This document shows positions 10,326-48,536 of a DNA stretch of 55,127 nucleotides, piece by piece. Position numbers and translations under genes: made by a program. The notes under the pieces are model-generated. The model was not told the origin of the DNA. It did no database searches and saw only the letters and a program-made list of their open reading frames with translations. Source of the stretch: Candidatus Thermoplasmatota archaeon. Its GTDB lineage: Archaea > Thermoplasmatota > Thermoplasmata > UBA10834. The stretch lies in NCBI GenBank assembly GCA_018814355.1, contig JAHIZT010000054.1:1-55127 (forward strand), in the 5' to 3' direction. Each line of letters opens with the position of its first letter. Position 1 is the first letter of the stretch.

Positions 10326-10335
10326 CCTAAAAAGC
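10326..10335 (-). promoter_or_regulatory. Candidate TATA box for fhs
   Basis: Minus-strand GCTTTTTAGG about 35-45 bases before the fhs start codon, giving a predicted leader of about 15-20 bases. It is flanked by another AT-rich run (CGAAATTTCG). Confidence 0.45.
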
Positions 10336-10523
10336 TTTTTCGAAATTTCGACGAATATCGCAGCGTTTGATGCAATAGATTCGTTTGTCGAGGAGAACGT
10401 GGACAGTTCTCGTCATGGAGCCATGCTTTCAGGCCCGTTGCCGGGAATCGGGCCCATCGAGGAATGAAAACGCTATCGATTTTCGCTCACCCATCTCTTC
10501 GAGGAAGGCAATTTGCCAAGAAT

Positions 10524-18458: not shown

Positions 18459-18874
18459 AACTTCACCTCCCTCAACGGATTGGGCCCGAGCTTCTGGATA
18501 TCCTGGACAAAATCGGTTATGACCTTCTGGAACTTCTCGCCCTCGGCCGCGCTGACCCAATCCAGTTTCATCCTCTTCTCGTCGATCCCGGTCTCCTTCA
18601 GGACCTTCTGGACCAGGGGCATCCGCTTCGCCGTCCTGTGGTTGCCGGTCATGTAGTGACAGTCGCCTATGTGGCAGCCCAGTACGAGAACGCCGTCGAT
18701 GCCCTGCGACAGGGCTTTTATGACGTATTCCGGCTTCACGCTCGCGCTGCACATGACCCTGATGACATGGACGTTGGGCGGCATCTGGAGCCGGCTGACG
18801 CCCGCCAGGTCGGCCCCAGCGTACGAGCACCAGTTGCAGCAGAATGCGAGTATGGTCGGCCTGAAGTCCGTCAT
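18455..18874 (-). CDS. mvhD: MvhD-family [2Fe-2S] electron-transfer subunit of the Fdh-Hdr operon
   Basis: 139 residues from the ATG at 18874, which overlaps the HdrA stop by four bases; a longer frame to 19000 is an artefact. It has the full set of MvhD Cys: FCCNWCSYAGAD (about 12-23), VMCSASVKPEYV (about 41-52) and LGCHIGDCHY (about 67-76), unlike the copy in the metF operon. MvhD docks hydrogenase or formate dehydrogenase onto HdrA in methanogens (established). Here it should connect the FdhA-side proteins encoded just downstream to the two HdrA-type flavoproteins encoded upstream. Confidence 0.92.
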   Translation of the reverse strand: MTDFRPTILAFCCNWCSYAGADLAGVSRLQMPPNVHVIRVMCSASVKPEYVIKALSQGIDGVLVLGCHIGDCHYMTGNHRTAKRMPLVQKVLKETGIDEKRMKLDWVSAAEGEKFQKVITDFVQDIQKLGPNPLREVKF

Positions 18875-20562: not shown

Positions 20563-20564
20563 CC

Positions 20565-21863
20565 CTAGGCACCTCCTTCCAGGAGCTCGGCGACCCTGGC
20601 CGCGACGCCCGAGGCCTGGGCGACGGAGTCGGGGATGTCCATGGGAGCACCCGCGAATCCACAGATAAGGATGCCTTTCATGCTCGAATCGACCGGGTGC
20701 CTGAGGCTAGGTGTCCTAAGGAACCTGTCATCATCGAGCTCGATCCTCAGTAGCTTGGCCAGGTCGGGCGCGCCGCTGGACGGAACGAGTGCAGGGCAGA
20801 GCACCAGCATGTCGAACTCCTCAGTGACCTGCTCCCCAGCCAATCCCCTGGTCTCGTAGGTGACGAGCACTCCGGATCCATCGTTCGCGGGTTGGACCTT
20901 CGCGGGCCTCGACCTGATGTATCTCACGCCGTAGTTCTTCTCAGCTCTCTGGACGAATTCCTGGAAGCCCTTCCCAGTAGCGCGCATATCCATGTAGAAT
21001 ATCGTGCTGTTGATGTCCGGGACGTGCTCCCGGACGAGTATCGATTCCTTCGTCGCGTACATGCAGCACACGCTGCTGCAGTACTTGTACATCTTCTCGT
21101 CTCTCGAGCCGACGCACTGGACGAATCCTAGCTTCCTCGGCTCTTTGCCGTCCGAAGCTCTGACCAGATGGCCGCCTGTAGGCCCGGACGCTGACAGGAT
21201 CCTCTCGAGCTGCAGCGATGTAACGACGTCCTTGCAGATGCCCAGGCCGTACTGGGAAAGAACGGTCACATCGGCCAAGTCGAAGCCGGTCGCCACAACC
21301 ACCGCGGACGCATCCAGCACGACCGTCGAGTCCTTCTGGTCGTACTCTATGGCCCCAGCCTGGCACACCTTCTTGCAAATGCCGCACTTACCGCTCTTGA
21401 TCATCGTACAGTGCTCGGCGTCTATGGTCACCTTGCGAGGGACCGCCTGTGGGAAAGGGAGGTATATTGCCCTCCTTTTGGACAGCTTCTCCTCGAACTC
21501 GTTCGGGACCTTGACGGGGCACTTGGCCACGCAGTCCCCGCAGCCGGTGCACTTGGAGATGTTGACGAATCTCGCTTTCTCCTTGATCGTGACCTTCAGT
21601 TTCGGGAATTCGCCGCTTATCCCCACGACCTCTGAGTATACGTGAAGCTTGACGTTCTCGTGACCAGCGCACATGATCATCTTCGGAGACAGGATGCACA
21701 ACGAGCAGTCGTTTGTGGGGAATGTCTTGTCCAGCTGGGCCATCCTCCCGCCGATCGACGGCGACCTTTCTACGAGATGCACCTCGTATCCCATGTCCGC
21801 GAGGTCCAGCGATGCCTGTATGCCGGCGATCCCTCCTCCTATCACCACGACCTTCTTGGACAT
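20565..21863 (-). CDS. hdrA: HdrA-like flavoprotein (QmoA-like half) of the Fdh operon
   Basis: 432 residues from the ATG at 21863, which has GAGGT seven bases upstream; the extra 20 residues of the longer frame cover the promoter. The protein starts with VVVIGGGIAGIQASLDL and contains the HdrA hallmark TFPTNDCSLCILSPKM, a [4Fe-4S] motif CTGCGDCVAKCP, a second Cys group CGICKKVC, and QCVGSR with YCSSVCC. The C-terminal segment GILICGFAGAPMDIPDS is the usual second FAD contact. It is the first gene of the operon. It pairs with the 563-residue HdrA and MvhD in the same order as the QmoA-QmoB-MvhD-like set in the metF operon. Confidence 0.9.
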   Translation of the reverse strand: MSKKVVVIGGGIAGIQASLDLADMGYEVHLVERSPSIGGRMAQLDKTFPTNDCSLCILSPKMIMCAGHENVKLHVYSEVVGISGEFPKLKVTIKEKARFVNISKCTGCGDCVAKCPVKVPNEFEEKLSKRRAIYLPFPQAVPRKVTIDAEHCTMIKSGKCGICKKVCQAGAIEYDQKDSTVVLDASAVVVATGFDLADVTVLSQYGLGICKDVVTSLQLERILSASGPTGGHLVRASDGKEPRKLGFVQCVGSRDEKMYKYCSSVCCMYATKESILVREHVPDINSTIFYMDMRATGKGFQEFVQRAEKNYGVRYIRSRPAKVQPANDGSGVLVTYETRGLAGEQVTEEFDMLVLCPALVPSSGAPDLAKLLRIELDDDRFLRTPSLRHPVDSSMKGILICGFAGAPMDIPDSVAQASGVAARVAELLEGGA

Positions 21864-21913
21864 GATTAGACCTCTGCTGCTCTGGCCAGTATATGAATGG
21901 GACGCACCCACGC

Positions 21914-21921
21914 GATATATC
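21914..21921 (-). promoter_or_regulatory. Candidate TATA box for the hdrA-mvhD-fdhA operon
   Basis: GATATATC lies about 50 bases before the ATG of the first HdrA gene and would give a leader of about 25-30 bases containing the GAGGT site. Confidence 0.5.
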
Positions 21922-22069
21922 ATTTCCGCAATACCGCTGTAACGTTGTTTCCGACCAATCCTTCCGGCGGCCGGTTCTCAAAGGGGTAAGCAAGTCCTCT
22001 TGATAAGAATTGCCGTCGTGCAGGGCTCCATTCAGGACACCGGAGTCGGCCCGCCACGCTCACGCCAAA

Positions 22070-28145: not shown

Positions 28146-29303
28146 CTACGCTGCCTGAAGAGCTATCTGGACGACATCCATCGTCTTGATGTCCAGACCC
28201 GCCTTTTTCGCGCCTGCATTCAGGTTCACCTGGCAGAACGGACACGATGTGGCGATGACCTCCGCCCCTGCCTTGACGAACTGCTTCACGCGCTCCGCGG
28301 CGATGTCCTCGGCCATGTCATTGAAGGCCGACTTGAACCCACCACCCGCGCCGCAGCATTGGGCGTCCTCTTTCTCTTCCCTGATCTGGATGAGCTCCAG
28401 CCCTGGAATCGCCTTTAGGATGTTCCTCGGCGCATCGTAGACCTTGGCATGTCTGCCCAGGTGGCACGGGTCGTGGTACGCCACCTTCTTCTTGAACTCT
28501 TTGGTGAATTTCAGCTTCCCGTCCTTGATCAGCTTCTCGAGATACTCTGAGATGTGGTACAGCTTGTAGGACGGCTTTCCCGTGAGGCTGGGATAGTCGT
28601 TCTTCATCGTGTTGTAGCAGCCCGCGCAGGCAGTGACCATGGCCTTCCAGCCGCGTCTGTCCATCTCCCTGACATTGTGCGGCGCGAGCTCGTCCCGGAC
28701 GGGTCCTTTCTGGCCAGTCCTCAGCAGTGGGGAGCCGCAGCACCATTCGTCCTCGCCGAGGATGTTGAACTTGACGCCTGCCTTGTCGAGCAGCTTCGCG
28801 GTCGCCGCTGCCAAGGGCTGCATCCTGTATGCCTCCGTGCAGCCCGTGAAGAAGACGACATCCGGGTTGGGTGAGAGCTTGATGTCAACTGGCAGCCACG
28901 CGGCCCTCTTCTCCTTGGGCTCGTCGTACGGGTTCCGCTTCTGTACCACCCTCTCCTTGATCTTCCTGGAAGCCTCTGGCGGGCTAAATCCCTCTGAGAT
29001 CAACCATTCCTTGACCTCTTCCCAGAGCTTCGGGAACTCGATCTCGACATGGCAGGTGTGCTCGCACGCGGCGCATGAAGTGCACTGGAACACCCTCTCG
29101 ACGAACTTAGGCGTTATCTTGGTGCTCCGTCCGAGCAGCCTGTCCATCGGGGTCCGCGCGGCCATCTGCTTGAGGTAGAAGACCTTGCCTCTTGGAGATG
29201 AGGACTCCCAGCCAATCACTCCGTGGACCGGACAGACATCCTTGCAGTATCCGCATTGCAGACAGGCGTAGAGGTCCTTCTCAATCTCGTTGATCTTTCT
29301 CAT
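28146..29303 (-). CDS. HdrD/GlpC-like iron-sulfur protein with two CCG domains
   Basis: 385 residues from the ATG at 29303, which has GGTGA seven bases upstream. The N-terminal part has two [4Fe-4S] motifs, CLQCGYCKDVCP (about 14-25) and CTSCAACEHTCH (about 74-85). Then follow two CCG domains: CTEAYR, WCCGSPL, CAGCYNTM; and CHLGRHAKV, QCCGAGGGF, SCPFCQVNL. In HdrB/HdrD such domains hold the non-cubane clusters that reduce disulfides; GlpC and LutA are other members. No HdrE-type cytochrome, glycolate oxidase or dehydrogenase is beside it, so its partner is unclear. It could supply the disulfide-reductase role missing from the two HdrA operons (inference). Confidence 0.85.
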   Translation of the reverse strand: MRKINEIEKDLYACLQCGYCKDVCPVHGVIGWESSSPRGKVFYLKQMAARTPMDRLLGRSTKITPKFVERVFQCTSCAACEHTCHVEIEFPKLWEEVKEWLISEGFSPPEASRKIKERVVQKRNPYDEPKEKRAAWLPVDIKLSPNPDVVFFTGCTEAYRMQPLAAATAKLLDKAGVKFNILGEDEWCCGSPLLRTGQKGPVRDELAPHNVREMDRRGWKAMVTACAGCYNTMKNDYPSLTGKPSYKLYHISEYLEKLIKDGKLKFTKEFKKKVAYHDPCHLGRHAKVYDAPRNILKAIPGLELIQIREEKEDAQCCGAGGGFKSAFNDMAEDIAAERVKQFVKAGAEVIATSCPFCQVNLNAGAKKAGLDIKTMDVVQIALQAA

Positions 29304-29439
29304 GACAGTCACCAAATGATCGTCCAATGCTCCCGGACCTGTCCCATCAGGGTCGGGAGCCGCTTCAGTCCCTTGTCCCGAGTGATGGCTTCAATGATGA
29401 TAAACCTAGCGAGCTACATCCGTAGTGGTAGTACCTGGC

Positions 29440-35272: not shown

Positions 35273-35632
35273 ATGCTTGCAGAGGACTATATGGGAGTCG
35301 CAGTTTTTGCGATCATAGCCCTTCTGATTCCAACGCTCGTATTCCTCCTCTCGAGATACATCCGGACGGACAAGAACGACCCTCGAGGCATGACAACCTA
35401 CGAGTGCGGTGAGGTCCCGGTGGGGGACGCTCGGATACAGTTCCATTTCCAGTACTACATGTATGCGATCATCTTCGTGGCATTCGACCTGGTGACTGTC
35501 TTTGTTCTCATGTGGGCACTGGTGTTCTCTGACCTGGGTCAGCTTGCGAAGCTCTACATGCTGATATTCCTGGGAATCCTTCTCGTTGGAGTGACGTACG
35601 CGCTGAAGAAGGAGGAGATAATCTGGATATGA
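35273..35632 (+). CDS. nuoA: Complex I subunit A
   Basis: 119-residue membrane subunit of the Nuo/Fpo proton pump. It has three membrane segments (about 8-28, 65-87, 92-110) and the family motif YECGEVPVGDARIQFHFQYYMYA between the first and second, the loop near the quinone cavity. It is the first gene of a run extending to nuoN, with ATG directly at the predicted transcript start. Its stop overlaps the nuoB start by four bases. Confidence 0.93.
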   Translation: MLAEDYMGVAVFAIIALLIPTLVFLLSRYIRTDKNDPRGMTTYECGEVPVGDARIQFHFQYYMYAIIFVAFDLVTVFVLMWALVFSDLGQLAKLYMLIFLGILLVGVTYALKKEEIIWI

Positions 35633-36204
35633 AGACCGCTCCCAACGATCCATCCATGGGAAATGTCCTCGCGTTCCGGTCAAAGGATTTCCTCAAATGG
35701 GCTGACAATGTTCTCGAGGGCATCCTTAGGAGGTCGCCAATAGGGACCGGAGTCGACCTCATCACCAAGGACTTCTTCAACTGGGCCACCAGGAACTCCA
35801 TATATCCCTTGCACTTCGGCATCATGTGCTGCGCGCTCGAGATGGCCGTCGCATCCGCCCCGAGGTTTGATGCACAGAGGTTCGGTGTCATCTACCGGTC
35901 CACGCCGAGGCAGTGCGATGTCCTCCTCGTCAACGGCCCAGTTAGCAAGAAGCTCAAGCCGGCCCTTAGGAGGCTGTACGACCAGATGCCTGGGCCGAAG
36001 TGGGTCATAGCGATGGGCGAGTGCGCCATATCTGGTGGGCCTTTCTACAACAGCTACAGCGTCGTGCCAGGCGTCGACCAGTTCATACCGGTCGACATTT
36101 ACATACCGGGGTGTCCAGCCAGACCAGAGGCGCTCATTGACGGGTTCATCAAATTGCAGAAGATAATCAAAGACAACAAGAAAGGACTGCTGACAGGCAA
36201 GTGA
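35629..36204 (+). CDS. nuoB: Complex I subunit B (N2 cluster)
   Basis: 191 residues. It carries the ligands of the terminal [4Fe-4S] cluster N2: adjacent Cys67-Cys68 in IMCCALEMA, Cys132 in GECAISGGPF and Cys162 in PGCPARPEA. N2 hands electrons to the quinone (or methanophenazine-like carrier) at the NuoB/NuoD interface. The first 35 residues are a short extension compared with methanogen FpoB. The start overlaps nuoA by four bases. Confidence 0.95.
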   Translation: MKTAPNDPSMGNVLAFRSKDFLKWADNVLEGILRRSPIGTGVDLITKDFFNWATRNSIYPLHFGIMCCALEMAVASAPRFDAQRFGVIYRSTPRQCDVLLVNGPVSKKLKPALRRLYDQMPGPKWVIAMGECAISGGPFYNSYSVVPGVDQFIPVDIYIPGCPARPEALIDGFIKLQKIIKDNKKGLLTGK

Positions 36205-36233
36205 ATCTCAAGACAATCAAAGGGGAGACTGAC

Positions 36234-36743
36234 ATGGGAGAGCGGGGGAAGAGCATTCTGTCGGAGGGCCTTGAGAGAGCCCCCAGCAGAATAGACGAGG
36301 TTCCCGAGGAGAGGGTCATCAGAGCGCTCCTTGACAACTTCCCATCGACCGTTACCGACTTCAAGAAGCTCAGGAAGGGCGTCATAAGGGCAAAGATGGA
36401 GCGCAGGGAGCTCTACAAGTGCTGCAAGTTCCTCAGAGACCAGCTGGGGTTCGAACACTTGTCCATGATCTCAGCGGTCGAGTACGACAACAGGTTCGAG
36501 ATCGTCTACCACATATCCTGCTACGGTTCCTGCCTGCTCCTGGAACTCATCACGAGCACGCCCAAGGACGACCCGAGCGTCGACTCCGTCTCCTCCGTCT
36601 GGGGAGGGGCCAACTGGCAGGAGCGGGAGTCCTTCGACCTAATGGGCATCAAGTTCAACAACCACCCGAGGCTGGAGCGCATACTGCTCCCCAAGGACTA
36701 CCTGTACCATCCGCTGAGGAAGGATTTCAAAGGGGGTGACTGA
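36234..36743 (+). CDS. nuoC: Complex I subunit C
   Basis: 169 residues from the ATG at 36234, which follows AGGGGAG; a GTG at 36201 overlapping the nuoB stop is the alternative but lacks a good site. Family features are LGFEHLSMISAVEYDNRFEIVYHI and the C-terminal WGGANWQERESFDLMGIKFNNHPRLERILLPKDY pattern. It is not fused to NuoD, as it is in some bacteria. It stabilises the peripheral arm next to NuoB and NuoD. Confidence 0.92.
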   Translation: MGERGKSILSEGLERAPSRIDEVPEERVIRALLDNFPSTVTDFKKLRKGVIRAKMERRELYKCCKFLRDQLGFEHLSMISAVEYDNRFEIVYHISCYGSCLLLELITSTPKDDPSVDSVSSVWGGANWQERESFDLMGIKFNNHPRLERILLPKDYLYHPLRKDFKGGD

Positions 36744-37826
36744 GTGGCCGAGATGTGGATCAACATGGGCCCCCAGCACCCGATGACGCACGGTCTCTGG
36801 AACCTCAGGATCAAGGTCGACGGGGAGACGATCACAGACGCAGAGCCGGAGGTCGGGTACCTGCACAGGGGGATAGAGAAGCTCTGCGAGGGCAAGACGT
36901 ACACTCAGATCATACCTCTCGCCGACAGGCTCTGCTACGGGTCGTCCATGACCTGGAGCCACCTGTACTGCCTCACGGTCGAGGACCTGATGGGCGTCGA
37001 GGTGCCCGAGCGCGCGGAGTACATTCGCGTGGCAGCGATCGAGATGCAGAGGATAGCGTCTCACCTGATGTGGCTCGCGGCGTACGCTGTGGACCTCGGG
37101 GCTATGGTCGGATTCATCTACACTATGAGGGACAGGGAGGTCTTCATCGACCTTCTCCAGGCGCTGACCGGCTCGAGGCTCACCTACAACTATCCGAGGA
37201 TAGGCGGGGTGGCGCACGACGTGCCTCCGGACTTCGAAAGGGATTCCTTGCGCGCGTGCGACTACATGGAAAAGAAGCTCGTGGAGTACGAGGACCTGTT
37301 CGACGGTTCGAAAATCTTCATGATGAGGAACGTCGGAGTCGGCAAACTGCGCAAGGAGGATGCCATGAACCTCGGGGTCACGGGCCCGCCGCTCAGAGCC
37401 TCCGGCGTGAATTACGACCTCAGGAAGGATATGTCATATTCGGTCTACCCTGAACTTGATTTCCAGGCATGCACCCTTCCGGACGGCGACTGCTATGCCA
37501 GATACCGAGTCAGGATGGATGAGATGTACGAGAGCTGCAAGATCGTCCGCCAGGCGATACAGAAGATGCCCAAGGGCAAGTGGAGGATTGTGGCTCCCAG
37601 GAACGCCCCATCGGGCACCGGCCTCGGAAGGGTCGAGGACCCGAGAGGCGAGGGGATGATGTACGTCGTAGGGGACGGGACTGACAAGCCCTACCGCCTC
37701 AAGATCAGGAGCCCGATCTTCGTGACCGTATCTGCAGCCAAGAAGATGCTCGTGGGATACAAAGTGGCCGATGTCGTGGCGATCATGGGCGGGCTCGACA
37801 TGTGCATCGGGGAGGCTGATAGGTGA
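36744..37826 (+). CDS. nuoD: Complex I subunit D (quinone-binding)
   Basis: 360 residues starting with GTG, four bases after GGGGGTGA and directly after nuoC. Key residues are the NMGPQHPMTHG N-terminal loop, whose His lies in the quinone pocket, and GYLHRGIEKL near 40. Its C-terminus, GGLDMCIGEADR, has the non-hydrogenase form (no paired Cys of a NiFe site). It is therefore the complex-I-type subunit and not a membrane-bound hydrogenase large subunit. Confidence 0.94.
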   Translation: MAEMWINMGPQHPMTHGLWNLRIKVDGETITDAEPEVGYLHRGIEKLCEGKTYTQIIPLADRLCYGSSMTWSHLYCLTVEDLMGVEVPERAEYIRVAAIEMQRIASHLMWLAAYAVDLGAMVGFIYTMRDREVFIDLLQALTGSRLTYNYPRIGGVAHDVPPDFERDSLRACDYMEKKLVEYEDLFDGSKIFMMRNVGVGKLRKEDAMNLGVTGPPLRASGVNYDLRKDMSYSVYPELDFQACTLPDGDCYARYRVRMDEMYESCKIVRQAIQKMPKGKWRIVAPRNAPSGTGLGRVEDPRGEGMMYVVGDGTDKPYRLKIRSPIFVTVSAAKKMLVGYKVADVVAIMGGLDMCIGEADR

Positions 37827-37833
37827 TGCCAAG

Positions 37834-38961
37834 ATGAACCTGTTCACTTTCAGCTACGGTATCATACATTGGCTCGTCGACCTCATCAACCATCTGTGGT
37901 ACTGGCTTGGCGATGTCCTGCCCTGGCAGTTCGGGGACTTCTTCGACGCCGTCGGCGAATTCGCAGCGTCCGACGGGCATATCACGGTGATGGCCATCTT
38001 GGTGGAAGTTCTCATAATCGTCATCATCGCGCTCGTGAACGTTCTCAACTTCATCTGGATCGACCGGAAGTTCATGGGACGCATGTTCGATTTCTACGGC
38101 CCGTACTACGTCGGCTACAGGATCGGCGGCTGGCTCCAGAACCTTGCGGACGGGATCAAGCTGTTCGTGAAGGAGATAATAACGCCTGCTAAGGCCGACA
38201 AGCTGGGGTTCCTCCTAGGACCAATCATATTCGTCGGCTCGTCGTTCCTCGCCTTGTCCACGATACCTCTTGGCCGTGACTTCGGGATATCGACGAACGC
38301 CTCCGGGGCCGGCGTGCCCGGCAGCGCGCTTATCGCGTTCGCGTTCTTCGCCATCGCTCCGTTCTCGATACTCATCTGTGGCTGGTCCTCGAACAACAAG
38401 TATACGCTCATCGGCGGACTGAGGTCCGCTGCCCAGATGATGAGCTACGAGATACCCATGCTGCTCACGGTCGCGAGTGTCTTCCTGATGGCCGGGAGCT
38501 TCAACTTCATGGAGATCGTGGATGCGCAACACGATGTGTGGTTCGCGATACCACTCTTCCTCGGATTCGTCATATTCCTGATATGTCTCGTCGCTGAGGT
38601 CGAGATACAGCCGTTCGACCTTCCGGAGGCCGAGGCCGAGCTCGTGGAGGGCTGGACGACGGAGTACTGCGGCATGCGGTTCGGCTTGTTCATGATGACC
38701 TCCTACCTGAGGGGATACATAGGAGGCGCGCTCGCCACCGCCCTCTTCCTGGGCGGTTGGCACGGCCCTGCACTGATCCCGGACCCGATATGGTTCCTGA
38801 TCAAGGCGTACATCGTCTTCGTCATAATCGAGTGGATGCGCTGGTCCGTCCCGAGGGTCAGGGTGGACCAGTTACTGAACATCGGCTGGAAGAGGCTAAT
38901 GCCTCTGGCGATGCTCAACCTGCTCATAGCTGCGTCCCTTAAGACCTTGGGGTGGTTCTGA
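37834..38961 (+). CDS. nuoH: Complex I subunit H
   Basis: 375 residues from the ATG at 37834 (TAGGTGAT upstream); a longer frame from 37771 overlaps nuoD and is not used. Eight or so membrane segments are visible. The family loops are LNFIWIDRKFMGRMFDFYGPYYVG near 72, QTLADGIK-type QNLADGIKLFVKE, EVEIQPFDLPEAEAELVEGWTTEY near 270, and the C-terminal RWSVPRVRVDQLLNIGWK. It connects the peripheral arm to the proton-pumping arm. The N-terminal 60 residues are longer than usual. Confidence 0.93.
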   Translation: MNLFTFSYGIIHWLVDLINHLWYWLGDVLPWQFGDFFDAVGEFAASDGHITVMAILVEVLIIVIIALVNVLNFIWIDRKFMGRMFDFYGPYYVGYRIGGWLQNLADGIKLFVKEIITPAKADKLGFLLGPIIFVGSSFLALSTIPLGRDFGISTNASGAGVPGSALIAFAFFAIAPFSILICGWSSNNKYTLIGGLRSAAQMMSYEIPMLLTVASVFLMAGSFNFMEIVDAQHDVWFAIPLFLGFVIFLICLVAEVEIQPFDLPEAEAELVEGWTTEYCGMRFGLFMMTSYLRGYIGGALATALFLGGWHGPALIPDPIWFLIKAYIVFVIIEWMRWSVPRVRVDQLLNIGWKRLMPLAMLNLLIAASLKTLGWF

Positions 38962-39869
38962 TGCCGGCCAGGAAGAGACTGAACAGCTTCGGTTTCGTGT
39001 TCAGGCCGATGAAGCGGACCGGGAAGCAGGTCTGGGAATCTCTCATAGTCGGCAAGCCCAATACCGTTCTTTACCCGTACCACAAGCTCAATCTCCCGCC
39101 GACCTACCGCGGGAAGCACACGCTCGACTTCAAGAAATGCATCGGCTGCGCCAACTGCGTCCAGATATGCCCCAACGACTGCATGTGGATGGAGAAGATC
39201 GAGGATCCCGAGCTCGGAAAAATAGAGAGGCCCGGGATCGACATGGGAAGATGCCTGTTCTGCGGTCTGTGCGTGGAAGTCTGTCCCACTGTGGCGCTCC
39301 ACGAGACGGTCGAGTTCGAGCTCGCGAGCAGTGACAGGGGCAAGATCAAGTTCAGCGCGAAGGAGCTCAGGGACGACTCCTATGCTGACAAGGTCGTCGA
39401 GGAGCGGCAGAAGCGAGCTGTTCCAGTGCTCGACCTGGGCAAGTGCACTGGATGCGAGAAGTGCGCCGGCGAGTGCCCCGAGATGTGCATCGCGATGATG
39501 CCCGTCGAGAGCGTGGGGAAGTTGAAGCCGGAGATCGCGCTGCCCAAGTGCACTGCGTGCGAGAAGTGCGTGGTCGCGTGCCCTGAGAAGGCCCTGACGA
39601 TGAAGGACATGTACGAGTCCTACTTCGAGATGCCAGAACCGAAGTTCATACTCAAGAACTGCACTGGCTGCAACGCGTGCGCGAAGGCCTGTCCCGCGGA
39701 TGCGATATACATGATGGAAATGCCGGGCACGGAGAGGATACTCAAGGACGGCAAGAAGAGCAAGCCGAAGAAGAGAGCCGTGTTCGTGCTGGAGAAGTGC
39801 GTCGGGTGCGGCAAGTGCTTCCGGGCGTGCAAGTTCCAGTCGATCGAGATGCCGGGGGTGAAGAAGTGA
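38961..39869 (+). CDS. nuoI: Extended complex I subunit I with six [4Fe-4S] motifs
   Basis: 302 residues from the ATG at 38961, sharing a base with the nuoH stop and preceded by GGGGTGG. The first 120 residues are ordinary NuoI/FpoI, with clusters at Cys60-63-66-70 and Cys98-101-104-108. Four more CxxCxxCxxxC motifs follow: 162-172, 197-207, 234-244 and 280-290. The last motif ends in Lys rather than Pro. A normal NuoI is about 150-180 residues with two clusters, so this is a fusion with a polyferredoxin-like region. As the operon lacks nuoE, nuoF and nuoG and no FpoF follows, this extension is a good candidate for the ferredoxin docking or electron-entry site (inference). Confidence 0.9.
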   Translation: MPARKRLNSFGFVFRPMKRTGKQVWESLIVGKPNTVLYPYHKLNLPPTYRGKHTLDFKKCIGCANCVQICPNDCMWMEKIEDPELGKIERPGIDMGRCLFCGLCVEVCPTVALHETVEFELASSDRGKIKFSAKELRDDSYADKVVEERQKRAVPVLDLGKCTGCEKCAGECPEMCIAMMPVESVGKLKPEIALPKCTACEKCVVACPEKALTMKDMYESYFEMPEPKFILKNCTGCNACAKACPADAIYMMEMPGTERILKDGKKSKPKKRAVFVLEKCVGCGKCFRACKFQSIEMPGVKK

Positions 39870-40129
39870 CCTGGGAGCTGTTCATATTCCTGTTCATGGC
39901 TGCCTCGGCCCTGATTTCCGCCATGATGGTCATCGCGTCCAAGGAGATAGTCCATAGCGTGATCGCCCTGGCTACCAGCTTCATATCCATTGCCGTCCTG
40001 TTCGTCATGCTAAGCGCAGAGTTCGTCGCCATCGTGCAGATCCTGGTCTATGTTGGCGCGGTTGTCGTCGTCATCCTGTTCGGTATCATGCTCACAAGGC
40101 GCGAGATAATGGAGAGTGAGAAGCGATGA
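39866..40129 (+). CDS. nuoJ: Complex I subunit J, N-terminal half
   Basis: 87 residues starting at a GTG that overlaps the nuoI stop (GTGA), four bases after GGGGGTGA. A longer frame from 39677 is a shadow of nuoI. It holds the first NuoJ membrane segments (WELFIFLFMAASALISAMMV, HSVIALATSFISIAVLFVML and AIVQILVYVGAVVVVILFGIM) and ends in the charged MLTRREIMESEKR. The rest of NuoJ is a separate gene, as in methanogen FpoJ. Confidence 0.88.
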   Translation: MTWELFIFLFMAASALISAMMVIASKEIVHSVIALATSFISIAVLFVMLSAEFVAIVQILVYVGAVVVVILFGIMLTRREIMESEKR

Positions 40130-40368
40130 ACACCGCAGTCCCGCGCGCATTGGCGGCCGCGGCCCTCGCGCTGCTGTTCATAGGCGCCATCCTGCAGGTC
40201 GACTGGCCCTCCGGCGAAATGGACCAGACCACTAGCCGGGAGGTCGGCCAGACTCTCTTCGGCTATTCGAACCTCTCGGGATACGGCCTCATCATGATGC
40301 TGATAGGTCTGTTGCTGCTCGTCGCCATGCTCGGCGGGGTGTTCCTCGCGAAGGAGGAGAAACCATGA
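40126..40368 (+). CDS. nuoJ: Complex I subunit J, C-terminal half
   Basis: 80 residues with membrane segments near 8-23 and 52-74, overlapping the first half by four bases and nuoK by four bases. It matches the C-terminal part of NuoJ (ending LLLVAMLGGVFLAKEE). Both halves are in separate frames with their own starts, so this is a genuine split gene as in Methanosarcina, not a sequencing frameshift. Confidence 0.85.
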   Translation: MNTAVPRALAAAALALLFIGAILQVDWPSGEMDQTTSREVGQTLFGYSNLSGYGLIMMLIGLLLLVAMLGGVFLAKEEKP

Positions 40369-40685
40369 TCCCGATCGAATACTGGCTCGTGTTCAGCTCG
40401 CTCCTGTTCGCGATCGGAGCATACGGCGTGCTGTCCAGGAAGAACGCCATCGTCGTGCTAATGTCCATCGAGATCATGCTCAATGCCGCGAACATCAATC
40501 TGGTGGCATTCAGCTCATATCACACTGCGCTGCACGGAGTCCCGGACGCCTCGGGCCAGGTGTTCGCGCTGTTCTCAATCGCAGTCGCCGCTGCAGAGGT
40601 TGCAGTCGGCCTGGCCATCATCCTGTCGGTCTACAGGGGATATCAGACGATCGATGTTGACAAGATCAACATCCTGAGGTGGTAA
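40365..40685 (+). CDS. nuoK: Complex I subunit K
   Basis: 106 residues, three membrane segments. It shows the family pattern YWLVFSSLLFAIGAYGVLSRKNAIVVLMSIEIMLNAANINLVAF with the membrane Glu (SIEIMLNA) important for proton transfer, then SIAVAAAEVAVGLAIILSVYR. Start overlaps the second nuoJ gene by four bases. Confidence 0.94.
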   Translation: MIPIEYWLVFSSLLFAIGAYGVLSRKNAIVVLMSIEIMLNAANINLVAFSSYHTALHGVPDASGQVFALFSIAVAAAEVAVGLAIILSVYRGYQTIDVDKINILRW

Positions 40686-40686
40686 G

Positions 40687-42651
40687 ATGCTGGAGTACGC
40701 GTGGCTCATACCGGTCTTCCCCTTCGTTGCCTTCATCCTCATAGGTCTCCTACCAAGGCGCACGCTCGGCTGGGAGGACGGTGCGGGCTATGCGATTGTG
40801 GGCGCCGGGGGCGCGCTCATCATCTCCATGCTCATGATATGGGAGGTTATCAACGGTCGTACTCTGACGATCGATGCGCCCAGCACGGAATGGCTCGTCA
40901 TCGGCGGCTTCTCTATCAGGTTCGGGATCTGGATAGACCAACTCACGGCGGTGATGCTTGTGGTCGTCTCCATCGTGGGCACTCTCGTCGTCATCTACTC
41001 GGGCGGGTACATGCACGAGGAGGCCGAGCGGAGGAGGCGGTACTACGCGGAGATCATGCTGTTCATATCTGTCATGTACGGCCTCGTGATTGCCAACAAC
41101 TACCTCGAGATGTTCATCTTCTGGGAGCTCGTAGGTCTATGCTCCTACCTGCTCATAGGCTTCTGGTACGAGAAGCCCTCGGCTGCCAGTGCGGCCAAGA
41201 GGGCCTTCATTGTGACCCGCGTGGGCGACATCATGTTCATGGCGGGCATCATCATCCTGCTCAAGTATGTGGGGGCGCTCGACTTCGCCACACTATTCGC
41301 ATCGGGAGGCGTGAGCGCAGTTCCCCAAGACATGCTGACGCTCTCCACCGCTCTCATCTTCGGCGGCGCGATAGGCAAGAGCGCGCAGTTCCCGCTGCAT
41401 GAATGGCTGCCGGATGCGATGGAGGGCCCGACGACCGTGTCCGCCCTCATACACGCTGCGACCATGGTGAATGCCGGTGTGTACCTGACGGCTAGGACAT
41501 ATCCACTCCTTGTCCAGACTCCGGATAGCCTCCTGTTCGTCGCGGTCATAGGCGGAATAACGGCGCTGCTCGCCGCAACGGTCGCGCTCGTGGCTACGGA
41601 CATCAAGAGGGTCCTCGCATACAGTACCGTGAGCCAGCTCGGGTACATGATCCTCGGACTGGGCGCGGGCGGCTGGCTGCTGATCAAGTCGGGCTCCACC
41701 GCTGGCTATTCCGCGGCCTTGTTCCACCTGATGAACCACGGTTTCTTCAAGGCGCTCCTGTTCCTTTGCGCTGGCAGCGTGATCCATTCTGTCGGCACCA
41801 ACAATATGCGCGTCATGGGAGGTCTTCGTAAGAAGATGCCGATCACATCGATCACGATGCTCATCGGAGCACTGGCAATCGCCGGCATACCCCCGCTCTC
41901 GGGCTTTTGGAGCAAGGACGAAGTGCTCTCGTCGGTCTATCACGCTGGCCAATTCGACAGCGTGTTCCTGCTGCTCTGGTTCATGGGCGTAGCCACAGCT
42001 TTCCTGACAGCGTTCTACATGTTCAGGATGTGGTTCATGACCTTCTCCGGCGAGCCGAGGTCCGAGTACCACGCGCATGAGTCCCCCAGAATAATGACCG
42101 TGCCTCTGATGATCCTTGCCGGGCTTGCGGCAGTCTCTGGATTCGTCCTGTTCATGGGGGAGGGCTTCAAGCTCTTTCTCGAACGCTCTCTTGAGGGCCT
42201 CCCGATGCTCGTCCCCGAGCACGAGTCCTTCGCGGACATCGCTTCGAACGTGTTCACTGATGTGTTCACCTATCTTGTCCTCGGCCTAGTGGTCGCGGGC
42301 GTATTGATTGCCTACAGGATCTATCACATGCCAGGCTTCGACAGGTCAGTGTTCGCCAGGGGCTTTTCGGGCAGAATGCAGAAGGTCCTCGAAAACAGAT
42401 GGTACATCAGCAAGTTCTACGACGATTTCGCGCTGACCGTCTGGTACGGATTCTCGCTCATAGCTGATAAGTTCGACAGGTATGTCATAGATGGCATCGT
42501 GAACGGCTTCGCCTACCTGGGAGCGAACTTGGGCGGAGTCATCAGAAAGGCCCAGTCAGGGAATGTCCAGAGGTACGCGAGCCTGATAGTCCTGGGTATC
42601 GTCCTGCTGCTGATCTTCGTGGTATACATCTTGCCTTGGGGAGGTCTGTGA
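40687..42651 (+). CDS. nuoL: Complex I subunit L (antiporter-like)
   Basis: 654 residues. It has the Mrp-antiporter-type core with about 14-16 membrane helices, including MFIFWELVGLCSYLLIGFWYE (the Glu of helix 5), FPLHEWLPDAMEGPTTVSALIHAATMVNAGVYL, the broken helices and LAYSTVSQLGYMILGLGAG. The C-terminal region (about 560-654) contains the long lateral helix and the last membrane segment. Normal length. One base separates it from nuoK. Confidence 0.95.
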   Translation: MLEYAWLIPVFPFVAFILIGLLPRRTLGWEDGAGYAIVGAGGALIISMLMIWEVINGRTLTIDAPSTEWLVIGGFSIRFGIWIDQLTAVMLVVVSIVGTLVVIYSGGYMHEEAERRRRYYAEIMLFISVMYGLVIANNYLEMFIFWELVGLCSYLLIGFWYEKPSAASAAKRAFIVTRVGDIMFMAGIIILLKYVGALDFATLFASGGVSAVPQDMLTLSTALIFGGAIGKSAQFPLHEWLPDAMEGPTTVSALIHAATMVNAGVYLTARTYPLLVQTPDSLLFVAVIGGITALLAATVALVATDIKRVLAYSTVSQLGYMILGLGAGGWLLIKSGSTAGYSAALFHLMNHGFFKALLFLCAGSVIHSVGTNNMRVMGGLRKKMPITSITMLIGALAIAGIPPLSGFWSKDEVLSSVYHAGQFDSVFLLLWFMGVATAFLTAFYMFRMWFMTFSGEPRSEYHAHESPRIMTVPLMILAGLAAVSGFVLFMGEGFKLFLERSLEGLPMLVPEHESFADIASNVFTDVFTYLVLGLVVAGVLIAYRIYHMPGFDRSVFARGFSGRMQKVLENRWYISKFYDDFALTVWYGFSLIADKFDRYVIDGIVNGFAYLGANLGGVIRKAQSGNVQRYASLIVLGIVLLLIFVVYILPWGGL

Positions 42652-42652
42652 C

Positions 42653-44176
42653 ATGTTCGAGGGCGTTCCGATAGTTTCGATCATAATCCTGATGCCTCTC
42701 ATCGGCGCCGCGTGCACCTTCCTCCTCGGGAGGTACGAGAAGTATGCCAAATGGGTGGCGCTCTCGTTCTCATTGGTCGCGCTGGTACTGTCGGTCCTAG
42801 TGGCCCTGGTCTTCATGGTCGAGCCCGATTCGACGGCAACTGGATACCATGACGGGCGCGGGTTCTACAATTTCCAGTTCTACGAGTCGGCCACCTGGAT
42901 CAAGTCGCTCGGGATAACGTACATCGTGGGCCTCGACGGCATCGGCCTCCCGATGTTCGTGCTAACCACGCTCCTAAGCACGCTCTCGATATTGTTCTCG
43001 TGGGACACCAAGCTCAGGCCGAAGGAGTACTTCGGGCTCATGCTCATACTCGAGGTCGGCGTCCTGGGCGTGTTCTCGTCTCTGGACTACTTCGTGTTCT
43101 ATGTGTTCTGGGAGATCGTCCTGATACCGATGTACTTCATGATCGGTGTCTGGGGCGGGCCGAACAAGGACTATGCGGCGATCAAGTTCTTCATCTACAC
43201 GCACATCGCGAGTCTAGCGCTCCTCATCGCCATAATGGCCATGTACTTCCAGGCGGGCGTGAACTCCTTCGGCATGGAGGACATATGGCGCGCGGGGCAG
43301 ACGGAGTTCACAAAGGTGTTTCAGGTAGCTGCCTTCGGAGCAACATTCTTCGGGTTCGGCGTGAAGCTTCCCATGGTTCCGTTCCACACTTGGTTGCCTG
43401 ACGCGCATGTCGAGGCACCGACCGCTGGAAGCGTCTTGCTGGCCGGCCTGCTGCTCAAGATGGGCGGCTACGGCATCATCAGAGTGGCCATTCCCACTTT
43501 GCCCGAGGGCGCGGATGCGTTGCAGATAGTGATGGCCATTGTCGCCATCGCGAGCATCCTTTACGGTGCGATTTTGTGTCTCGCCCAGAAGGACCTCAAG
43601 AAGATGGTCGCGTACAGCTCCATCAGCCATATGGGCTTCGTGCTGCTGGGATTCGCGACGTTCACTCAGCTGGGGATCGTCGCGGGCGTGTTCCAGATGT
43701 TCGCCCATGGGCTCGTCACGGCAGTCCTGTTCATGATGTGCGGTGTTGTCCAGCACCATTGCGGTACCAGGATGATCCCGAGCCTGGGAGGGCTGTCCAA
43801 GAAGATGCCCGTGGCCTCGACCATGATGACGATCGGGTTCCTTGCCTCATTGGGTCTGCCGGGCCTGGTTAGCTTCGCTGCCGAGTTCATGGTGCTCGCG
43901 AGCATGTATCAGACTTGGGCGCTCTGGCTGTTCCTTCCGATAATCAGCGTCGCGATCACTGCTGGGTACTACATGTGGGCCCTGCAGAGATCCATGTTCG
44001 GTCCGATGACGCAAAAGATCGACACCGCGCATGTGCACGATATCAGCTGGTTCGAGGGAGCTCCTGTTGGGATACTCATCGCTCTGATCGCGCTGTTCGG
44101 CGTGTTCCCGATGCTCATATTCCAGTACATAGACCCAGCGGTGAAGATAGTGCTCGGGCTTCTGGGAGGTGGATGA
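42653..44176 (+). CDS. nuoM: Complex I subunit M (antiporter-like)
   Basis: 507 residues. It shows DYFVFYVFWEIVLIPMYFMIGVWGG (membrane Glu), KLPMVPFHTWLPDAHVEAPTAGSVLLAGLLLKMGGYG and KKMVAYSSISHMGFVLLGFAT, all standard NuoM signatures. It begins one base after nuoL. The end overlaps the ribosome-binding region of nuoN. Confidence 0.95.
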   Translation: MFEGVPIVSIIILMPLIGAACTFLLGRYEKYAKWVALSFSLVALVLSVLVALVFMVEPDSTATGYHDGRGFYNFQFYESATWIKSLGITYIVGLDGIGLPMFVLTTLLSTLSILFSWDTKLRPKEYFGLMLILEVGVLGVFSSLDYFVFYVFWEIVLIPMYFMIGVWGGPNKDYAAIKFFIYTHIASLALLIAIMAMYFQAGVNSFGMEDIWRAGQTEFTKVFQVAAFGATFFGFGVKLPMVPFHTWLPDAHVEAPTAGSVLLAGLLLKMGGYGIIRVAIPTLPEGADALQIVMAIVAIASILYGAILCLAQKDLKKMVAYSSISHMGFVLLGFATFTQLGIVAGVFQMFAHGLVTAVLFMMCGVVQHHCGTRMIPSLGGLSKKMPVASTMMTIGFLASLGLPGLVSFAAEFMVLASMYQTWALWLFLPIISVAITAGYYMWALQRSMFGPMTQKIDTAHVHDISWFEGAPVGILIALIALFGVFPMLIFQYIDPAVKIVLGLLGGG

Positions 44177-44177
44177 G

Positions 44178-45671
44178 GTGTCCGTCTGGAACTACTTGGA
44201 CGTGCTTACCCCACAGCTGCTTCTGATAGTGTTCGCGCTGCTGATGCCAGCCCTCGACTACATCTTCAAAGACAAGCGGGTCATCTCCATGATGGCACTC
44301 GCGCCGCTGGTCGCGGTCGCCGCTGCGCTCATATCATGGATATTCCTAGATATCTGGACCCCGCCGGAGAGCCAGATCAGCCTGATCGATTTGGACATCT
44401 TCGCCGGCCTGTTCATGCTCGTGTTCGTCTCGGTGGGGATCGTCGTCGTGCTCGGCTCACCAGAGTTCATCAAGAACGACAAGAACCAAGGTGAGTACTA
44501 TGCGCTCATCCTGCTGGCCATCACGGGCATGACGATCGTTGCAGAATCCACCGACCTGATCGCCCTGTTCGTGGGCCTCGAGATCGCAGGCATATCGTCG
44601 TTCGCCCTCTCCGGCTTCAGGAAGACGGAGAAGAGGAGCGCAGAGGCAGCGACCAAGTACTTCATCGTCGGAGGCTTCTCGTCAGCGCTGACGCTGTTCG
44701 CCATATCGCTCCTCTACGGGGTCGGCGGCACGACCAACATAGCCTCCATAGGTTCCATACTGACGACATCCACCGCGCCCTGGATCATAGACTCTCACCC
44801 GGTCGTCCTGCTCGCTGCGGTCATGCTAATGGCGGGCATCGGGTTCAAGATCGCAATGGTCCCGTTCCACATGTGGGCCCCGGACGTGTACGAGGGTGCT
44901 CCGACGCCGATATCAGGCCTGCTCGCAGCCGCCTCGAAGAAGATGGGATTCGCCGCGTTCTTCAAGATATTCCTCGTTGCGATAATCGTCACGAAGACGG
45001 ATTGGGAGGAAGCGGTCGCCGTCCTCGCGATCCTCACGATGATTGTCGGCAATCTGATCGCGGTCTCGCAGACCAACATAAAGAGGATGCTCGCGTACTC
45101 GTCGATCGCCCAGGCGGGCTACATACTGATCGCGCTCCCGGTGGCAACCCAGTACGCAGTCGCTGGCGGCATATTCCACATCATCACGCACGCGTTCATG
45201 AAGTCCGGGGCGTTCATGGTCGTCGCGGCAATGGGGGCCGTGGCTGTCGGCGAGAAGCTCGAGGATTTCAAAGGACTGAGCAAGCGGTCGCCCTTCCTCG
45301 CGTTCTCCATGACACTGTTCCTGCTCTCGCTGGCGGGCATCCCGCCTCTTGCTGGCTTCTCTAGCAAGTTCGTGCTCTTCTCGTCGGCGGTGGAAGCCTC
45401 CTTCATAGATGGTCAGGGATGGATGATATGGCTCGCGGTCGCTGGCGTGCTCAACAGCGCTTTGTCATTGTACTATTACGCGCGCGTGATCAAGAATATG
45501 TACATGGAGAAGGGCCCTTCGGAAAAGGTGAGGGTCCCGCCGATGCTCGGAGCCGCCATCTCCGTCGCGGTGATCATGGTAGTCGCAATCGGCATCTATC
45601 CGGATGCGGTCGTCACAGCCTGCAGGCACGCGGGCGAAACCTTCTCGGGCCTTGTTTCCGGCTGGCCCTGA
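44178..45671 (+). CDS. nuoN: Complex I subunit N (antiporter-like)
   Basis: 497 residues from a GTG at 44178, six bases after GGGAGGTG. A GTG three codons earlier (44169) lies inside that site and is less likely. Family motifs are LIALFVGLEIAGISSFALSGFRK, KIAMVPFHMWAPDVYEGAPTPISG and KRMLAYSSIAQAGYILIALP, and it ends near residue 490 after 14 membrane helices. It is the last pump gene; quinone-related genes follow after 72 bases with their own promoter. Confidence 0.94.
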   Translation: MSVWNYLDVLTPQLLLIVFALLMPALDYIFKDKRVISMMALAPLVAVAAALISWIFLDIWTPPESQISLIDLDIFAGLFMLVFVSVGIVVVLGSPEFIKNDKNQGEYYALILLAITGMTIVAESTDLIALFVGLEIAGISSFALSGFRKTEKRSAEAATKYFIVGGFSSALTLFAISLLYGVGGTTNIASIGSILTTSTAPWIIDSHPVVLLAAVMLMAGIGFKIAMVPFHMWAPDVYEGAPTPISGLLAAASKKMGFAAFFKIFLVAIIVTKTDWEEAVAVLAILTMIVGNLIAVSQTNIKRMLAYSSIAQAGYILIALPVATQYAVAGGIFHIITHAFMKSGAFMVVAAMGAVAVGEKLEDFKGLSKRSPFLAFSMTLFLLSLAGIPPLAGFSSKFVLFSSAVEASFIDGQGWMIWLAVAGVLNSALSLYYYARVIKNMYMEKGPSEKVRVPPMLGAAISVAVIMVVAIGIYPDAVVTACRHAGETFSGLVSGWP

Positions 45672-45743: not shown

Positions 45744-46736
45744 ATGGTCAATATGCGCAACACCATGACCACGAAGCCATGGGATTTCGGCATCCAGAAG
45801 GAGCTCCGGATGGTTGATGAGAAGCTCCACGAAATGGTGAAATCCCGGGAGAAGGTTCTGACTGACGCCTCCTTGCATGTCATAGACGCCGGTGGCAAGA
45901 GGATCAGGCCGACGGTCACGATCCTCGCATACAGGGCTCTTGGCGGCTCCGATGTCTCGAAGATAGTCGATATCGCAGCCGGGTTCGAACTCATACATTC
46001 AGCGACGCTCATACACGACGACATCAACGACGGCGGCTCCACTAGGAGAGGCCGGGAGACAGTTTTCAAGAAGTACGGTATGCACGATGCCATCGTAACC
46101 GGCGACTTCCTCTTCTCGCAGGCGTTCAGGATAGGAGGCGTGTTTGACAAGACGGTAGTGCAGACGACAGCGGACGCCTGTGCCGCGTTGGCCGAGGGCG
46201 AGATACTTCAAAACAGGTACAGGCACAGGAAGGATCTGACCGTTGACACTTATCTCCAGGTCGCCGAAAGGAAGACCGCGGAGCCCATCAGAGCAGGCGC
46301 GATGGTGGGCGCCTACCTGGCAGGCGGCAGCCCTGAGGCGATCCAGAGCTTGGGAGCGTACGGACAGGATCTAGGCATCGCGTTCCAGATCGTCGATGAC
46401 ATCCTCGATTTCACAGGCGATGAGAAGAAGACCGGCAAGATGGTCGGGAACGACCTCAAGGAGGGCAACCTCACTCTGCCTTCCCTGCTCGCAATCAAGA
46501 GCTCCAAAGATGCGAAGAAAGCAATCCTGGACGTGATAGCCCGCGAGGAACCATCGGCGGACGATGTCAGGAAATGCGCTCAGCTCGTGATCAAGTCGGG
46601 AGCCATCAAGAAGGCCAAGGACATGGGAGAGTTCTACGGGATAGAGGCCCTAGGACATCTCGGATGCCTGTCTGATAACCAGCACAGCCAAGGCCTCAGG
46701 GACCTGGTGAACAAGGTGCTCGGAAGGGAATCGTGA
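45744..46736 (+). CDS. Trans-polyprenyl diphosphate synthase
   Basis: 330 residues. Both Asp-rich motifs are present: HDDINDGG near 92 (DDxxD) and VDDILDFTGDEKKTGK near 215, plus GGKRIRPTV near 50. The order STRRGRETVFKKYG after the first motif resembles long-chain (hepta/octaprenyl) synthases used for quinone tails rather than short GGPP synthases. The following MenG-like and reductase genes support a quinone role. The product chain length cannot be fixed from sequence. The TATA spacing favours the ATG at 45765, removing seven residues. Confidence 0.88.
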   Translation: MVNMRNTMTTKPWDFGIQKELRMVDEKLHEMVKSREKVLTDASLHVIDAGGKRIRPTVTILAYRALGGSDVSKIVDIAAGFELIHSATLIHDDINDGGSTRRGRETVFKKYGMHDAIVTGDFLFSQAFRIGGVFDKTVVQTTADACAALAEGEILQNRYRHRKDLTVDTYLQVAERKTAEPIRAGAMVGAYLAGGSPEAIQSLGAYGQDLGIAFQIVDDILDFTGDEKKTGKMVGNDLKEGNLTLPSLLAIKSSKDAKKAILDVIAREEPSADDVRKCAQLVIKSGAIKKAKDMGEFYGIEALGHLGCLSDNQHSQGLRDLVNKVLGRES

Positions 46737-46746
46737 GGATGCACTG

Positions 46747-47472
46747 ATGGATCCGCAAGGCATGAGTGGAAGGGAATGGCACGAAGTGATGGACGCCATG
46801 GAGGAGGTCGGGCCTTACTACGACAGGGTCAATTGGATGATAACATTCGGACTGGTGGACAAGTGGCGGAAGAAGGTCGCCTCCATTGCTGGTCCGGACG
46901 ATGTGGTGCTCGAGATCGGGTCCGGTCCGGGCAACTTCACAAAGCATCTGACATCGAACCAGGTGTTCGCACTCGAGCCGTCCAGCGAACTGTCGTCATA
47001 TGCGAAGCAGCTGCTCGACCACGACAGGGTGACTTTCCTGAAGGGCGTAGGCGAAAGGATCCCTCTCACTGACAAGTCCGTTGACAAGGTGTTCTGCGTA
47101 TTCTCGTTCAGAGACTTCTTCGACAGGCGCGCAGGGGCGGAGGAGATGCACCGCGTGCTCAGAGACGGCGGAGAGGTCGTGATTGTCGACATGGCGAAGC
47201 CACCGCCAGGTCCGTTGGCGAAGATGCTTGAGTTTCATGTCAGGCATATGGTCCCGCCGCTCACGCGCCTTGTAGTGCCATCTGTTGCCAGGGAGAGATG
47301 GACCCGGGATCCCTACCGAATTCTCCTCGATACATACGATGCCTACGGGTCAACAAAGGTCTATGAGGACCTTTTAAAGAGGACAGGTTTCTCTGACGTA
47401 TCGACCGAGTATCTGGAGCTCAAAGGAGCGACGATGACCAGGGGGATGAAACCTTGGACGTCGACGTTCTGA
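46747..47472 (+). CDS. UbiE/MenG-like quinone methyltransferase
   Basis: 241-residue SAM-dependent class I methyltransferase. SAM-binding motif VLEIGSGPGNFTKHL lies near 55, followed by FALEPSSEL, GVGERIPLTDKSVDKVFCVFSFRDFFDR and EMHRVLRDGGEVVIVDMAKPP, the pattern of UbiE/MenG. It probably methylates the prenylated quinone ring. Ten bases separate it from the polyprenyl synthase, and its 3' end overlaps the start of the flavoprotein gene by 19 bases. Another small-molecule substrate is possible. Confidence 0.82.
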   Translation: MDPQGMSGREWHEVMDAMEEVGPYYDRVNWMITFGLVDKWRKKVASIAGPDDVVLEIGSGPGNFTKHLTSNQVFALEPSSELSSYAKQLLDHDRVTFLKGVGERIPLTDKSVDKVFCVFSFRDFFDRRAGAEEMHRVLRDGGEVVIVDMAKPPPGPLAKMLEFHVRHMVPPLTRLVVPSVARERWTRDPYRILLDTYDAYGSTKVYEDLLKRTGFSDVSTEYLELKGATMTRGMKPWTSTF

Positions 47473-48536
47473 TAGTCGGCGCTGGTCCGGCTGGGAGCAC
47501 GACCGCTAGGTACTGTGCGGGAAGAGACCTAGACGTTCTGATGATAGACAGGCGGACCGAGATCGGTTACCCTGTCCAATGCGGTGAGTTCCTCCCCGAT
47601 GCGAAAGAGATGTACTCGATGTTCCCCAAGAGCATGGACCTCGAGGAGCTTTTCACGCTCGACGACTCGCTGGTCACCGGAAGTTCCGACCACATCGATC
47701 TGATCTCCCCCAAGGACAGGGTCTACAGGTGTGCGTTCAGGGGTCGCACCCTAGACCGCAGGTCGTTCGACAAGTACCTGGCGGGACTGGCTGTCGAGGC
47801 GGGTGCGAGGCTGGAGACCGGCGCTTCATTGTTGTCTATCAAGGACGGGTTGGCAAAGACGACCCTCGGGGATGTCAAGGCGAGGGTGATAGTTGGAGCT
47901 GATGGACCGAATTCGAGGACCGCGAAGAGCATCGGCTTGTCTGGCCCGGCTGCGAAGTATCCTGCGATAACATGCCATGCCGATGGCGACTTCGAGCCCG
48001 TCATCAAGATGTATTTCGGACACCTGGCTCCGGGAGGCTACGCCTGGGTGATCCCCAAGCGGACCGGCGCGAATGTGGGGGCCGGATTCAACCCGAAGCT
48101 GTTGAAGGAGCGCCCAAGCGAATTGTTCAGGAGGTTCGCTTCGAGGCTCGGGCTGACCTACGAGGACGTCTCCATGAAGCTCGTTCCTATGTCAGGACCT
48201 GTGCCCCAAACCGTGAAGGACAACGTGCTCCTCGTAGGAGATGCTGCGGGCCAAGTCATGGCTACAAACGGCGGTGGCATACCGATAGCTATGATCGCTG
48301 GTAGGATCGCCGGACAGACTGTCAGGCAGCACTTGAAGGATGGCCGGGCGCTGTCGGAGTATGAACGAAGATGGAGGGACGTCCTGGGCAAACCACTTGC
48401 AGATTCCTTGTGGACGAAGACGCTCGGGGACCGCTTCTTCCCGACAGACAGGCGCACCGAGTTCGCGATGTTCGTGCTCAGGAGATGGGGCCTGGCCAGG
48501 GCGATCAGGTGCACCAAGGTATTCTATCTATTCTAG
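47454..48536 (+). CDS. Geranylgeranyl reductase-family flavoprotein, TTG start
   Basis: 360 residues. N-terminal FAD Rossmann motif VLIVGAGPAGSTTARYCAG, then YPVQCGEFLPD (the conserved GGR Cys region), RGRTLDRRSFDKYLA, IVGADGPNSRTAKSIG, and GDAAGQVMATNGGGIPIAMIAGR at about 262-284. These enzymes saturate double bonds in archaeal lipid or menaquinone side chains. The start is a TTG at 47454, with GGGGGATG seven bases upstream and no suitable ATG. It lies inside the end of the methyltransferase gene. Its place behind two quinone-type genes favours saturation of the quinone tail over core lipid, but both are possible. Confidence 0.9.
   Translation: MDVDVLIVGAGPAGSTTARYCAGRDLDVLMIDRRTEIGYPVQCGEFLPDAKEMYSMFPKSMDLEELFTLDDSLVTGSSDHIDLISPKDRVYRCAFRGRTLDRRSFDKYLAGLAVEAGARLETGASLLSIKDGLAKTTLGDVKARVIVGADGPNSRTAKSIGLSGPAAKYPAITCHADGDFEPVIKMYFGHLAPGGYAWVIPKRTGANVGAGFNPKLLKERPSELFRRFASRLGLTYEDVSMKLVPMSGPVPQTVKDNVLLVGDAAGQVMATNGGGIPIAMIAGRIAGQTVRQHLKDGRALSEYERRWRDVLGKPLADSLWTKTLGDRFFPTDRRTEFAMFVLRRWGLARAIRCTKVFYLF

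Follow-up and report, generated by a model that had tools for sequence, protein, structure and literature searches.

The window considered here, a stretch of 55,127 nucleotides from a Candidatus Thermoplasmatota archaeon (assembly GCA_018814355.1, contig JAHIZT010000054.1, positions 1 to 55,127), carries at 35273-45671 an intact nuoABCDHIJJKLMN operon without nuoE, nuoF or nuoG (Table 1), whose gene content and order are the same in every relative with a contig spanning it. The core residues of the complex are intact: the NuoB cysteines given in the table are the four N2-type cysteines, and the HPxTHG and DRxxY motifs of NuoD hold the histidine and tyrosine positions of the quinone site. NuoD finds its best matches, above 400 bits, among NuoD models, and a motif check of this protein found none of the L1/L2 cysteine patterns of [NiFe] enzymes, which excludes a group 4 [NiFe] hydrogenase.

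Encoded between nuoH and nuoJ is a protein that is a NuoI according to the NCBIfam model TIGR01971 (157.4 bits for a cut-off of 113.05, residues 29-135), with two motifs in this region, the N6a/N6b pair of ordinary NuoI, and four more downstream of it. The first-pass annotation had read six such motifs from the gene, and the translation carries them at exactly the residues that it gave; the last of them is followed by a lysine (CK, not CP). Chance can be discarded as their origin: 20,000 shuffled versions of the protein contained 0.0135 motifs on average and never more than two, against the six observed. The ATG of nuoI overlaps the stop codon of nuoH by one base (TGATG) and its own stop overlaps the GTG start of nuoJ by four bases (GTGA), so that, with one reading frame between these ends, nuoI is a single translated unit and not two genes misread as one.

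Table 1. Features of the nuo operon and of other genes in the window
Feature	Position	Strand	Remarks
HdrA-like gene pair (adjacent genes)	5597-8433	-	each gene matches parts of HdrA/HdrA2
Formate-tetrahydrofolate ligase	8573-10375	-	809 bits; near HdrA-like gene pair
Formate-dehydrogenase-alpha-like gene	15632-17677		near HdrA-like pair 18871-21923
Fe-S protein	17658-18830	-	390 aa
HdrA-like gene pair (adjacent genes)	18871-21923	-	each gene matches parts of HdrA/HdrA2
HdrD/TfrB-like protein	28146-29327	-	CCG domain twice, dicluster ferredoxin domain once
nuoA	35273-35632	+	PF00507
nuoB	35629-36204	+	CC67-68, C132, C162 present
nuoC	36201-36743	+	PF00329
nuoD	36744-37826	+	HPMTHG and DRLCY present; [NiFe] L1/L2 motifs absent
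nuoH	37834-38961	+	PF00146
nuoI	38961-39869	+	302 aa, six CxxCxxCxxxC motifs, fused tail (putative polyferredoxin)
Motif 1, CIGCANCVQIC, residues 60-70	39138-39170	+	in TIGR01971 match
Motif 2, CLFCGLCVEVC, residues 98-108	39252-39284	+	in TIGR01971 match
Motif 3, CTGCEKCAGEC, residues 162-172	39444-39476	+	pairs with motif 4 in the first added ferredoxin-like unit
Motif 4, CTACEKCVVAC, residues 197-207	39549-39581	+	first extra unit, with motif 3
Motif 5, CTGCNACAKAC, residues 234-244	39660-39692	+	pairs with motif 6 in the second added ferredoxin-like unit
Lys/Arg-rich loop, KDGKKSKPKKR, residues 262-272	39744-39776	+	between motifs 5 and 6
Motif 6, CVGCGKCFRAC, residues 280-290	39798-39830	+
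nuoJ, N-terminal part	39866-40129	+	GTG start; by position and the split J of Methanomassiliicoccales
nuoJ, C-terminal part	40126-40368	+	by position
nuoK	40365-40685	+
nuoL	40687-42651	+
nuoM	42653-44176	+
nuoN	44169-45671	+
Polyprenyl synthetase, UbiE-like methyltransferase, geranylgeranyl-reductase-like flavoprotein	45744-48536	+	directly after nuoN

The tail that follows the core of this NuoI is best explained as a short polyferredoxin, made of two fused ferredoxin-like units, one with motifs 3 and 4 and the other with motifs 5 and 6. Profile and fold searches returned MvhB, FwdF and RnfB among its best matches, and an AlphaFold2 model of residues 141-302 (15 sequences; mean pLDDT 75.8, pTM 0.43) displays two ferredoxin-like units separated by a hinge of low confidence around residues 219-223. 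A model of the whole protein, likewise from 15 sequences, is too weak for placement of the tail (pLDDT 61.6, pTM 0.40); the stretches of low confidence in NuoI modelling lie at 145-152 and 217-226. With its 46-residue spacing, the 5-6 unit is the one nearest to the tail found in family f9 of the same class (scores of 167-175 versus 98-100 for the 3-4 unit), so that motifs 3 and 4 may represent an addition made in the order of the window. Simple local duplication of one unit is unsupported, the two scoring no nearer to each other than to other pairs of ferredoxins.

We searched 300 genomes of the class, Thermoplasmata, with the NuoI model and then read loci in most of the families, which yielded three forms. 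NuoI has two motifs in families f4, f5, f8, f11, f12, f13, f14, f17, f18, f26, f28 and f31 and in one f22 genome; it has four in f6, f9, f10, f15, f19, f20, f21, f23, f24, f27, f29, f30, f32 and f33, as well as in another f22 genome, while f3 displays three under the strict pattern. Six motifs, or five accompanied by a three-cysteine motif, are confined to f1 and f2, that is, to the order of the window, which consists of uncultured archaea, and their presence in relatives across this order means that the tail is no peculiarity of one genome. In a tree of NuoI cores the six-motif proteins make up one clade (support 100/99), nested within a larger clade (96/86) together with four-motif proteins, including those of methanogens; the root of this tree is arbitrary and its deeper forks are weak, which leaves room for one or several origins of the four-motif form. 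The six-motif form is an elaboration of a four-motif form that was already common, and no isolated oddity. Seven sampled genomes, belonging to f6, f20, f29, f30, f32 and f33, contain MCR, and all have a four-motif NuoI; in this class, possession of MCR suggests that they belong to Methanomassiliicoccales. Two f9 loci (L070 and L071) associate a four-motif NuoI tail close to the 5-6 unit with a core that groups, weakly, elsewhere, a mismatch possibly due to domain exchange or to a long-branch effect.

Within the order, the cluster cysteines vary at two positions only among 18 genomes. C200, the second cysteine of motif 4, is replaced in 9 of the 16 f1 genomes, by His (five), Gln (two), Glu (one) or Lys (one); in the two f2 genomes the change is in motif 3, whose second cysteine, C165, gives way to Lys. 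Eleven of the 18 genomes therefore have a tail motif without its second cysteine, so that a six-cluster wire is not universal in the order, while the protein of the window keeps all six motifs. Replacement of the second cysteine in small ferredoxins often goes with a [3Fe-4S] or a labile cluster, and the relatives without C200 or C165 may hold five full clusters and an altered one. In eight pairs of sequences dN/dS ranged from 0.05 to 0.13 for the core and from 0.04 to 0.21 for the tail, somewhat higher for the tail in some pairs; these low values place both parts under purifying selection.

The first-pass annotation had further stated that the pump lacks NuoEFG and that no FpoF gene follows, and this holds for the operon, for the genome as a whole and for 20 relatives. 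Neither FrhB_FdhB_C (PF04432, for FpoF) nor Complex1_51K (PF01512, for NuoF) was found in the 21 genomes of the order, this one included, in searches where the positive controls worked, and no separate FpoF or NuoEFG module, which it had named as a refuting finding, turned up in the genome or in the order. The order has, in consequence, neither the FpoF of an F420H2 dehydrogenase (Fpo/Fqo) nor the NuoF of a NuoEFG-type NADH:quinone oxidoreductase; with subunits A-D and H-N present and E, F, G and FpoF absent, the complex is headless and of the 11-subunit type. A gene may be missed because of genome incompleteness (this genome is 97.2% complete), but this is unlikely to have happened across 21 genomes. 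The genome contains five POR gamma domains, and its gene names include two Ior alpha, a Por gamma-delta and one 2-oxoacid oxidoreductase beta; 2-oxoacid oxidoreductases of the POR/Ior type produce reduced ferredoxin. Reviews report that the headless Fpo of Methanosaeta and of Methanomassiliicoccales oxidizes ferredoxin (PMC7374477, PMC7886697), the same activity is assumed for truncated complexes I in other Thermoplasmata (PMC9038741), and the structure of the headless NDH-1 of cyanobacteria has ferredoxin bound at NdhI, from where its electrons enter N6a (PMC7021789). By analogy with these systems, ferredoxin is well supported as the donor.

We can therefore propose, with a probability of about 0.65, that ferredoxin feeds this headless complex I through a relay fused to its NuoI subunit. 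Ferredoxin oxidoreductases, possibly also bifurcating enzymes of the Hdr type, would supply reduced ferredoxin, which would dock on the outer unit of the tail. Assuming that the clusters are occupied, electrons would then run along the extra clusters, enter the NuoI core at N6a and N6b, and go on to N2 in NuoB before reaching a membrane quinone at NuoD/NuoH, thereby powering ion pumping; the docking site, the path, the direction of flow and the quinone are all parts of the model that we infer. Directly after nuoN, three genes (polyprenyl synthetase, UbiE-like methyltransferase and geranylgeranyl-reductase-like flavoprotein), the order of which is kept in relatives, may make the lipid quinone for the pump. 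The original proposal was that the extension could replace the missing input module. Of this, input from ferredoxin is supported, and the need for a tail is not: in a comparison of 35 genomes of the class, where part of the two-motif proteins could come from complexes of hydrogenase type, both input modules were absent from 14 of 19 genomes with a four-motif NuoI and from 11 of 16 with a two-motif one (Fisher P = 1). As headless complexes are equally common with two-motif NuoI, ferredoxin input is possible without a tail, which is better read as a device that tunes, captures or channels ferredoxin electrons than as a precondition for headlessness.

The place where ferredoxin would land can be approached through electric charge. 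In cyanobacterial NDH-1, Lys86, Lys89 and Lys91 of NdhI touch ferredoxin (PMC7021789). These residues map between motifs 1 and 2, where the matching loop is acidic in f1 (EKIEDPELGKIERPG, net -3) and neutral, not acidic, in f2. Motifs 5 and 6 flank a loop which has, over its whole length, a net charge of +4 to +6 in f1, with KPKKR invariant, and which is a candidate patch for docking of ferredoxin. An acidic loop in the core and a basic one in the tail suggest, as an argument from charge, that the landing site may have shifted outwards. It may be supposed, tentatively, that docking moved from the core to the lysine-rich loop of the tail and that one tail cluster, with three cysteines in many relatives, is a tuned [3Fe-4S] or non-cysteine-ligated gate selecting the donors able to feed the pump.

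Other redox genes accompany the operon. The two HdrA-like gene pairs of Table 1 look like split or doubled HdrA subunits. Between the second pair and the formate-dehydrogenase-alpha-like gene lies the gene of the 390-residue Fe-S protein, to which Pfam assigns Fer4_2 alone, with weak partial matches elsewhere; the formate-tetrahydrofolate ligase close to the first pair suggests folate-linked one-carbon metabolism. HdrD has been proposed as the acceptor partner of the pump in Methanomassiliicoccales, and the HdrD/TfrB-like protein of the window is, by analogy, a candidate for this role. Such a setting may lead one to see the tail as a fixed port plugging the pump into a soluble enzyme, be it a complex of Hdr, of formate dehydrogenase or of a 2-oxoacid oxidoreductase. 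Indeed, its nearest solved relatives, FwdF and MvhB, are polyferredoxins with fixed partners in methanogen supercomplexes, and at least four further HdrA-like genes, elsewhere in the genome, add to the two pairs and to the formate-dehydrogenase-like gene of the window. However, the nuo operon has no gene of the Hdr, Fdh or Por type in any relative read, and physical contact with a soluble enzyme is conjecture, so that we hold this arrangement to be rather unlikely.

It is less probable still that the tail is an inherited elaboration, either an element of assembly or stability or a branch off the electron path, with at least one cluster dispensable for electron flow. While the equally headless complexes with two-motif NuoI, and the motif that repeatedly lacks a cysteine in relatives, would fit such a role, no other cluster cysteine varies among the 18 genomes and purifying selection on the tail is comparable to that on the core. 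Finally, reverse running, in which quinol and the membrane potential would reduce ferredoxin through the tail, is quite improbable: neither a heme-copper oxidase nor, in this genome, MCR was found, which makes the electron sink uncertain, but the several 2-oxoacid oxidoreductases should make ferredoxin plentiful, and its oxidation is the direction reported in relatives.

Fused relay input of ferredoxin electrons thus remains our preferred reading, and its interest comes from the fact that electron entry into archaeal headless complexes I is largely unsettled: a core subunit bearing a polyferredoxin offers a concrete, testable route. No description of NuoI or FpoI extensions was found in the literature searched, which took in few subscription papers, and the novelty of the six-motif protein is accordingly provisional. 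Our survey suggests that well-studied methanogens of the same class may carry a shorter tail, of which we found no discussion. The closest known system is the Fpo-like complex of Methanomassiliicoccales, which shares the subunit set, the split J, the absence of FpoF and ferredoxin as reported donor (PMC4153887, PMC7374477). The sampled MCR-bearing genomes of the class also have a NuoI/FpoI with a fused extension, but one with a single extra unit (four motifs, about 242 residues) where we find two units in 302 residues, in a genome without MCR. Photosynthetic NDH-1 is likewise a headless complex I in which a NuoI homologue, NdhI, takes ferredoxin, yet NdhI has N6a and N6b only, with a lysine-bearing docking loop where the f1 loop is acidic, and the complex recruits the extra subunits NdhS, NdhV and NdhO. 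FwdF and MvhB, the polyferredoxins of methanogens, consist of serial dicluster ferredoxin units, as the tail probably does, and are its best matches in sequence and fold, but they are separate proteins of soluble enzyme complexes, whereas the tail is fused to a subunit of a membrane pump. As for the two-motif complexes I of the same class (f18, f26 and f31), they too are mostly headless, with a NuoI of about 145-157 residues restricted to N6a and N6b, so that two-, four- and six-motif forms coexist within one class as a natural series on what added clusters bring.
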